Shown here piece after piece: positions 48,465-50,623 of a DNA stretch of 64,000 nucleotides (its first letter is position 1; every line of letters begins with the position of its first letter). The notes below the pieces were generated by a model. It saw nothing but the letters and a program-made list of their open reading frames with translations, was not told the DNA's origin and made no database searches. The position numbers and the translations under genes were made by a program. Origin of the DNA: Streptomyces sp. RPA4-2. Lineage in GTDB: Bacteria > Actinomycetota > Actinomycetes > Streptomycetales > Streptomycetaceae. The stretch spans positions 5,084,001-5,148,000 of the forward strand of contig NZ_CP050975.2 in assembly GCF_012273515.2 (NCBI RefSeq). Direction: 5' to 3'.

Positions 48465-48495
48465 TTGCACCTCACGTGACGTCAGGGGCCAGGCT
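48465..48495 (+). promoter_or_regulatory. tipA promoter with 19-bp spacer and TipA operator
   Basis: TTGCAC (48465-48470), a 19-bp spacer, CAGGCT (48490-48495): the same layout as ptipA of S. lividans. The spacer overlaps an inverted repeat CCTCACGT-G-ACGTCAGG (48470-48486, one mismatch), where a MerR-type dimer would bind and untwist the over-long spacer. It starts 58 bp before the gene. Confidence 0.85.
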
Positions 48496-48522: not shown

Positions 48523-49284
48523 GTGAGCTATTCGGTGGGCGAGGTCGCCGGATTCGCCGGGGTCACGGTGCGCACCCTGCACCACTACGACGAGATCGGC
48601 CTGCTCGTGCCGAGCGGGCGCAGTCACGCGGGGCACCGGCGCTACGGCGACACCGACCTCGACCGGCTGCAGCAGATCCTGTTCTACCGGGAGCTCGGCT
48701 TTCCGCTCGACGAGGTCGCCGCCCTGCTCGACGACCCGGAGGCGGACCCGCGCGCGCATCTGCGCCGCCAGCACGACCTGCTGACCGCCCGGATCGAGAA
48801 ACTGCAGAAGATGGCCGCGGCCGTGGAACACGCCATGGAGGCACGCACGATGGGCATCAACCTCACGCCCGAGGAGAAGTTCGAGGTCTTCGGGGACAAG
48901 GATCCCGAAGCACACGCCGAGGAGGCCGAGCAGCGCTGGGGAGGCACCGAGGCGTACGCCGAGTCGCAGCGCCGCGCCGCCCGTTACACCAAGGACGACT
49001 GGAAGCGCATGCAGGCCGAGGTGGCTTCCTGGGGCGAGCGCTACGACGCCCTCATGGAGGCCGGTGAGCCCCCGGCCGGCGAGTGCGCCATGGACATGGC
49101 CGAGGAGCACCGGCTCCACATCACCCGGTGGTTCTACGCCTGCTCGTACGAGATGCACCGGGGTCTCGGCGAGATGTACGTGGCCGACGAGCGGTTCAAG
49201 GAGTTCTACGACTCCATGCGCCCGGGGCTCGCCGAGCACCTGAAGGAGGCGATCGCGGCGAACGCCACCCGGCACGGAGGCTGA
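48523..49284 (+). CDS. tipA: TipA thiopeptide-responsive MerR-family regulator (TipAL), with internal TipAS
   Basis: 253 residues, the exact TipAL length, from GTG 48523 with GAAGGAG at 4-5 bp. MerR HTH: YSVGEVAGFAGVTVRTLHHYDEIGLL; coiled-coil dimer helix to ~105; then the globin-like TipAS domain. Met110 (ATG 48850) matches the internal TipAS start and gives 144 residues. In S. lividans TipAS binds thiostrepton-type thiopeptides covalently at Cys214; here positions 211-214 read Met-His-Arg-Gly, so Cys214 is absent while Cys207 (FYACSYEMH) remains. The promoter and autoregulatory site are intact. Ligand recognition may therefore be non-covalent, shifted to Cys207, or directed to other compounds. 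Confidence 0.95.
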   Translation: MSYSVGEVAGFAGVTVRTLHHYDEIGLLVPSGRSHAGHRRYGDTDLDRLQQILFYRELGFPLDEVAALLDDPEADPRAHLRRQHDLLTARIEKLQKMAAAVEHAMEARTMGINLTPEEKFEVFGDKDPEAHAEEAEQRWGGTEAYAESQRRAARYTKDDWKRMQAEVASWGERYDALMEAGEPPAGECAMDMAEEHRLHITRWFYACSYEMHRGLGEMYVADERFKEFYDSMRPGLAEHLKEAIAANATRHGG

Positions 49285-49320
49285 CGGCGCCCGTCCCGCG
49301 GGTCCCCGGCCGCGTCCGTG

Positions 49321-49380
49321 TTCGCCAGGGTTCTCCAGGGTTCTCCAGGGTTCGCCAGGGTTCTCCCGGGTTCTCCGGGG
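49321..49380 (+). repeat. Six tandem 10-bp repeats downstream of tipA
   Basis: Exactly in register: TTCGCCAGGG, TTCTCCAGGG, TTCTCCAGGG, TTCGCCAGGG, TTCTCCCGGG, TTCTCCGGGG. The array lies between tipA and the DedA gene; it is non-coding on both strands by context. Confidence 0.9.
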
Positions 49381-49525: not shown

Positions 49526-50623
49526 GTGACGCAGCTCGCCCTCGGTCCAAGCTGGATGGATCCGAACACGCTTCTGGACAACTTCGGCATCTGGGGCCTC
49601 CTCCTCATCGTCTTCGCCGAGTCCGGCCTGCTCATCGGCTTCTTCCTGCCGGGCGACTCGCTGCTGTTCACCTGCGGTCTGCTGATCACGTCGCACCAGC
49701 TGGACTTCCCGCTGTGGGGTGCCGTCGCCCTGATCTGCGTCGCCGCGATCCTCGGCGACCAGGCGGGCTACCTCTTCGGCAAGAAGGTCGGCCCCTCGCT
49801 CTTCAGCCGCCCGGACTCCCGCCTCTTCAAGCAGGAGAACGTGGTCAAGGCCCACGAGTTCTTCGAGAAGTACGGCCCCAAGTCCCTGGTCCTGGCCCGC
49901 TTCGTGCCGATCGTGCGGACGTTCACGCCGATCATCGCGGGCGTCAGCGGCATGCGGTACCGCTCCTTCATCACGTTCAACATCATCGGCGGCGTCCTGT
50001 GGGGCGCGGGCGTCACCCTGCTCGGCTCCTGGCTCGGCAACATCGCCGTCGTCAAGAACAACATCGAGGCGATCCTGATCCTGATCGTCCTCGTCTCGGT
50101 GGTCCCGATCGCCATCGAGTTCCTGCGGGCGCGCTCCAAGGCCAGGAAGAACCCGCCGGAGCCGCAGACCCCCCAGGGCCCGGCCGCGTACCAGCAGCAG
50201 CCCATGGCCCCCGTCATGGACGACGCCACGCGCCCGCTGCGCATGCAGCAGCCGCCGCAGGGCCAGGACCCGTACCAGCAGGGCCGCCGCGGGTCGGGCC
50301 GGCACCAGCAGGACCAGTACGCCCAGGGCCAGGGGTACCCCCAGCAGCAGGACCCGTACGCCCAGGGCCAGGGATACCCGCGGCAGCAGCCCCAGCAGCC
50401 CCAGCAGCCCCAGCAGCCCCAGCAGCCGTACGGCGACCAGGAGCAGGGCTACTACCAGGGCCACGACCAGAACCACGGCAGGCACGGCGACCAGAGCTAC
50501 GGGCAGAACCACGACCAGAACCACGACCAGGCCTACCCGCCCCAGCAGTACCCGCAGGGCTACCCGCAGCAGCCGTACGACGCGCAGCAGAACCCGTATC
50601 ACCAGGGCTACCCGCAGGGCTGA
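49526..50623 (+). CDS. DedA/VTT-domain membrane protein with long Gln/Gly/Tyr-rich tail
   Basis: 365 residues from GTG 49526 with GGAG at 9 bp. Residues ~25-205 are a DedA protein: FAESGLLIGFFLPGDSLL, DQAGYLFGKKVGP, the amphipathic FFEKYGPKSLVLARFVPIVRTFTPIIAGVSGM and a final helix pair. DedA proteins act in undecaprenyl phosphate or phospholipid translocation and membrane homeostasis. Residues ~210-365 are a low-complexity tail with QQP repeats (near 295-310) and DQNHDQNHDQ-type repeats, probably intrinsically disordered and cytosolic. Confidence 0.9.
   Translation: MTQLALGPSWMDPNTLLDNFGIWGLLLIVFAESGLLIGFFLPGDSLLFTCGLLITSHQLDFPLWGAVALICVAAILGDQAGYLFGKKVGPSLFSRPDSRLFKQENVVKAHEFFEKYGPKSLVLARFVPIVRTFTPIIAGVSGMRYRSFITFNIIGGVLWGAGVTLLGSWLGNIAVVKNNIEAILILIVLVSVVPIAIEFLRARSKARKNPPEPQTPQGPAAYQQQPMAPVMDDATRPLRMQQPPQGQDPYQQGRRGSGRHQQDQYAQGQGYPQQQDPYAQGQGYPRQQPQQPQQPQQPQQPYGDQEQGYYQGHDQNHGRHGDQSYGQNHDQNHDQAYPPQQYPQGYPQQPYDAQQNPYHQGYPQG

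Follow-up and report, generated by a model that had tools for sequence, protein, structure and literature searches.

The window analysed here, a 64,000-nucleotide stretch of the chromosome of Streptomyces sp. RPA4-2, carries a tipA orthologue whose product has Gly at position 214, the position which we take to hold the thiopeptide attachment cysteine in S. lividans TipA. Gly at 214 was found to be common among Streptomyces orthologues, not peculiar to the window protein, and it predominates outside the genus. The gene is probably a working chromosomal tipA, a self-activated drug sensor and drug sponge that holds its ligand reversibly, with Cys214 being a derived and often-switching addition to the Gly214 state. 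As a single finding the product is ordinary, being one of many Gly214 TipA orthologues.

The tipA gene and its product

Four Pfam families (MerR_1, MerR, MerR-DNA-bind and TipAS) scored above their cut-offs in the 253-aa protein, and the TipAS family (PF07739) matched as a single stretch at 139.5 bits against a cut-off of 23.8. The best solved relatives were all S. lividans TipA: the DNA-binding part matched PDB 2vz4 at 2.7e-59, and the TipAS part matched 2mbz/2mc0 at 8.4e-50 and 1ny9 at 4.7e-49. The S. lividans reference sequence was put together from two PDB chains, 2vz4 and 2mbz. The first-pass annotation had described a TipA homologue of the same length that aligns to this protein without gaps, and this was confirmed, with 179/251 identical residues in total, 97/109 in the DNA-binding part and 82/142 in TipAS. 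The two proteins share Cys207, I112, F123 and Met110, and differ at 213 and 214, where Arg-Gly replaces Thr-Cys (HRG for HTC, also as annotated), and at 126, 131 and 135, where the window protein has Lys, His and Ala. Within residues 1-251 the only cysteines were 188 and 207. Cys at 214 is expected of a covalent thiopeptide trap of the S. lividans type, and the window protein has Gly there. The genome is complete in a single contig of 9.86 Mb, and the whole chromosome gave one TipAS-domain match.

The 22 proteins most similar to the window protein (P0002-P0023, 91-99% identical, for example P0005 from S. fagopyri) form the group to which it belongs, with no notable difference between them. All 22 had both Cys207 and Gly214; at 213, 19 of them had Arg and 3 had Gln. 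A sequence error at 49161-49165, which the annotation had named as a possible flaw, was therefore rejected as very unlikely, the more so as the genome is a complete single contig.

Table 1. Features of the tipA locus, in window coordinates
Feature	Position	Strand	Remarks
-35-like hexamer TTGCAC	48465..48470	+	TTGCAC-CTCACG core upstream of 130/137 orthologues
Operator-like near-palindrome CCTCACG-TGA-CGTCAGG	48470..48486	+	One mismatch of seven
-10-like hexamer CAGGCT	48490..48495	+	19-nt spacer after TTGCAC
tipA orthologue	48523..49284	+	GTG start, 253 aa; MerR DNA-binding part and TipAS part
Predicted internal product TipAS, residues 110-253	48850..49284	+	ATG start; GGAGG at 48837-48841
Cys207 codon TGC	49141..49143	+	Cys in 126/137 and Val in 11/137 Streptomyces orthologues
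Arg213-Gly214 codons CGG GGT	49159..49164	+	Thr213-Cys214 in S. lividans
DedA-type membrane protein (VTT domain), downstream neighbour	49526..50623	+	PF09335, 1.3e-21

Position 214 among Streptomyces orthologues

The genus survey covered 189 Streptomyces genomes, with an orthologue defined by an E-value of at most 1e-95. An orthologue was found in 137 genomes and no match in 52, and all 137 orthologues were aligned with none dropped. Cys was found at position 214 in 88 and Gly in 34; Ser, Ala and Arg were each found four times and Asn, Glu and His once each, which left 49/137 orthologues without Cys214. Residues 212-214 read His-Arg-Gly, as in the window, in 16/137 and His-Thr-Cys in 36/137. 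Two further sets gave the same picture closer to the window protein. The best 80 named loci, which lean towards window relatives and overlap in species with the 137 orthologues, divided into 38 with Cys, 33 with Gly and 9 with another residue, and of the best 120 of 7139 protein matches, nearer still to the window, 110 had Gly, 6 had Cys and 4 had Ser. The absence of the cysteine had originally been framed as a loss peculiar to one protein; with these counts, and with Gly214 in 16/21 proteins from outside the genus, that framing did not stand. No paper on Cys214 variation among orthologues was found in the literature searched, outside which the primary TipA papers lie, and the variation may thus already be reported.

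Compensation by a cysteine at 201 was considered and rejected: Cys201 was present in 10/49 rows without Cys214 and 10/88 rows with it (Fisher p 0.21), and the window protein does not have it.

State outside the genus and on gene trees

The family-level sample comprised 61 genomes. Matches came from 41, and 32 of those genomes belong to other genera; the better-scoring 21 of these 32 were aligned. Of the 21 rows, 16 had Gly at position 214, the others being three with Cys, one with Ala and one with Ser. A wider phylum search gave 26 loci, one unaligned and one with a gap at 214. The 25 phylum rows included 12 Gly and 2 Cys, both of the latter being low-identity paralogues without Cys207. Two distant solved structures, SkgA of Caulobacter (7cla) and 3qao, presumably Lmo0526 of Listeria, share the MerR plus TipAS architecture and have Gly and Ser, respectively, in column 214. 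Both are far more distant from the window protein, with TipAS-part E-values of 7e-4 and 8e-6. Since Gly214 is common in the genus (34/137) and predominates outside it, Cys214 is the likelier derived state, and it was probably gained many times and lost again.

A protein gene tree was built from 164 rows, 137 of them from the genus, 21 from the family and 5 from the phylum, with S. lividans as the last; columns 205-216 were left out. On this tree the minimum number of switches between Cys and non-Cys at 214 was 28, compared with a mean of 54 and a minimum of 45 in 200 trials with shuffled labels. The Cys214 trait thus follows descent, yet changes often. The cost was 28 steps with a non-Cys root and 30 with a Cys root, with 15-18 gains and 10-13 losses. 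A codon tree of 163 rows again gave 28 switches and root costs of 28 (non-Cys) and 30 (Cys), with 14-18 gains and 10-14 losses; in both trees the preference for a non-Cys root is a difference of 2 steps. The corresponding two-state count at position 207 was 3.

When all residues were counted, position 214 required 40 steps, which placed it at the 86th percentile of the 251 columns and indicates that it behaves as a variable column would, and not as a protected active site would. The mean number of steps per column was 22.0 in TipAS versus 12.9 in the DNA-binding part. For the window protein itself the two trees conflict: Gly214 was a reversion from Cys inside a Cys-rich clade on the protein tree, and was retained from the root on the codon tree. 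The switch count is a rough one, since a single gene of about 250 residues resolves a tree poorly, and recombination may contribute to the count.

Promoter, internal start and neighbouring genes

The promoter architecture of tipA had been described as kept, and the elements in Table 1 bear this out. By sequence, the gene has its own promoter with a palindrome lying between widely spaced hexamers, the arrangement of an autoregulated tipA, and the layout matches that of S. lividans-like orthologues. The TTGCAC-CTCACG core was found at most 160 nt upstream in 48/49 orthologues without Cys214 and in 82/88 with it. The circuit is thus kept in both states. The right half of the palindrome was CGTGAGG in 108/137 orthologues, the window form CGTCAGG occurring in 11/137. 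Among the 129 orthologues holding TTGCACCTCACG, the hexamer at the 19-nt spacing was CAGGCT in 18, the commonest being CACCGT (37).

The exact 22-nt operator-like site occurred once in the 9.86 Mb genome. The next-best site had two mismatches and the control, read backwards, gave 1 and 2 hits, so no claim of a TipA regulon in this genome is made. The two-mismatch site lies at G000:C1:398020-398041 (L312), where the nearby frames suggest no target; given the control, a chance occurrence or the operator of another MerR-type regulator is plausible.

The annotated TipAS start at residue 110 was likewise present. Codon 110 was ATG in 134/137 orthologues, and GGAG occurred within 16 nt upstream in 137/137. 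This GGAG also encodes part of Met-Glu-Ala, and coding constraint may explain its conservation. The DedA/VTT gene adjoined tipA in 77 of the best 80 named loci, and a chloride-channel gene lay upstream in 30 of them. Shortly past the tipA stop codon, at window positions 49320-49380, a 10-nt unit (GTTCTCCAGG) was seen to occur six times in tandem.

Probable reversible capture and the drug-binding pocket

Among the three mechanisms offered by the first-pass annotation, reversible binding is the most likely. In the proposed mechanism, ligand-free TipAL would bind poorly to its own promoter. A thiopeptide or similar cyclic ligand would order the alpha6-alpha7 region, and the ligand-bound TipAL would then bind ptipA to give more TipAL together with TipAS, which would soak up the ligand. 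In S. lividans TipA, Cys214 presumably makes this capture irreversible. In the Gly214 protein the ligand would be held by shape and hydrophobic contact only and, position 214 being Gly, capture should be reversible. Chiu et al. reportedly found in 1999 that thiopeptides without the dehydroalanine tail left TipAS unmodified, yet induced ptipA with reduced activity. Activation would in that case not require covalency. On the other side, a passage of a review links the induction of ptipA to this tail (PMC3917276), and a passage of another paper describes TipA activation as following covalent bonding (PMC9909328). In the literature searched, Cys214 is not named as the attachment residue; PMC7762955 speaks just of 'an active cysteine'. 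A drug-trapping relative, AlbA of Klebsiella oxytoca, is a MerR-like drug-binding protein with a TipAS-like fold; as excerpted, it differs in having two tandem TipAS-like units, where the window protein has one PF07739 stretch, and in its ligand, albicidin, which it contacts by hydrophobic, stacking and hydrogen-bond interactions (PMC6078987).

Other positions in the drug-binding region had also been noted as different, and the changes F126K, Y131H and V135A bear this out. According to passages of PMC7762955, positions 126, 131 and 135 contact thiopeptides, the key contacts being Y131, V135 and W139; thiopeptide binding shifts the alpha6-alpha7 region and frees the DNA-binding part; and mutating F123, or I112 together with F123, impairs the DNA-binding switch while reducing thiopeptide affinity little. 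The same paper gives 5.2 uM, by ITC, for binding by S. lividans TipAL. The window protein keeps I112, F123 and W139. F123 and W139 were invariant in 137/137 orthologues and positions 126, 131 and 135 were variable. Because 131 and 135 are key for recognition and both are changed in the window, the protein may bind thiopeptides weakly or not at all.

A ligand of a different class, a non-thiopeptide drug or an endogenous metabolite to which a clade pocket of K126, H131, A135 and G214 would be adapted, is unlikely. It draws on the joint occurrence of K126, H131 and A135 in 9/137 orthologues, every one with Gly214, and on relatives with other ligands: in the excerpts seen, Mta, of the TipA class, is multidrug-responsive (PMC9909328) and AlbA responds to albicidin (PMC6078987). 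However, K126 (39/88) and A135 (44/88) were also the commonest residues of the genus among orthologues with Cys214, the nine rows look like a single lineage, and the switch residues and operator are kept. Linked change of pocket residues with 214 was assessed in 10 independent pairs on supported branches, and none was significant among the positions listed, which leave out F126 and part of K126. V135 occurred with Cys214 in 3.2 pairs versus 0.1 on average, a number too small for testing.

Position 207 and the state of the gene

Covalent capture at Cys207, with the dehydroalanine reacting seven residues before 214 in place of Cys214, is less probable still. Cys207 is present in the window protein and in all 49 surveyed orthologues without Cys214. 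It was equally usual beside Cys214 (77/88) and in the family relatives outside Streptomyces (21/21), and is apparently conserved for another reason. Since it is kept with and without Cys214, finding it here does not suggest that it replaces Cys214. Moreover, S. lividans TipA has both cysteines and only the second is known to react. A TipAS without cysteine in the named set (L127, described below) also speaks against capture at Cys207.

The rule that 207 and 214 never both lack cysteine was true for 137/137 orthologues, but was broken by L127 of the named set and was discarded. In that set, Val or Ile was seen at 207, within a YF(E/D)(V/I) motif, in nine loci (L114, L118-L121, L123, L125, L127 and L142). 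Cys214 was kept in 8/9 of this lineage, the exception being L127 from Streptomyces sp. S.PB5, which has Val207 and Ser214 and a TipAS part without any cysteine.

Compared with three near Gly214 relatives, dN/dS was 0.17-0.26 for TipAS and 0.14-0.15 for the DNA-binding part, values which for TipAS point to constraint (purifying selection). That the gene is decaying, its covalent function lost and the system no longer used, is very improbable: tipA is dispensable, with 52/189 genomes lacking a match at E 1e-95, and at least one other genome has a shifted and shortened copy, but in the window the frame is open, the operator is intact and dN/dS is low in both parts. The shortened copy (L051, genome G016) is 88% identical over residues 1-129, after which the frame departs, with a stop after 216 residues. 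Reversible capture by a working gene remains the preferred reading.

Paralogues, resistance and cluster markers

Two tipA-like paralogues were observed in other Streptomyces. The second paralogue, at 16 loci (L040-L050 and L052-L056), is about 48-53% identical to the window protein and has Cys207 and Arg214 in 16/16; column 110 is Thr, so there is no internal Met start. The third, at five loci (L057-L061), is about 35-39% identical and shows the opposite cysteine pattern, with Leu207 and Cys214 in 5/5.

The thiostrepton-resistance methyltransferase family PF04705 had no match in the RPA4-2 genome. A link between this family and position 214 was dropped, as 6/189 genomes matched at E 0.001 and 4 above cut-off, too few for the comparison. 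The four were G002, G021, G034 and G043, three of which were without a tipA orthologue at 1e-95 (Fisher p 0.064). TIGR03891 was tried as a marker for thiopeptide clusters and matched 130/189 genomes, which made it uninformative; its domain is also shared by other dehydratases.

Significance

A passage of PMC9909328 presents covalent bonding with thiostrepton as belonging to the TipA mechanism. If about one-third of the Streptomyces orthologues keep the promoter without the bonding residue, covalency would be an option of the system and not its core. Tentatively, and with some doubt, the covalent lock of TipA may be an evolutionary toggle, in which Cys214 is gained and lost tens of times while the promoter and activation switch are kept. 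Lineages would then alternate between a trap that is irreversible and a sensor that is reversible and re-usable, perhaps tracking the thiopeptides that they meet, and the window protein would be one among many reversible TipAs in nature. Of most interest in these results is how often the presumed covalent lock has switched while one promoter was kept, which offers a natural experiment on the purpose of irreversible capture. TipA and the tipA promoter are standard tools, the promoter being thiostrepton-inducible, and hosts with a non-Cys tipA of their own may respond differently when this tool is used.
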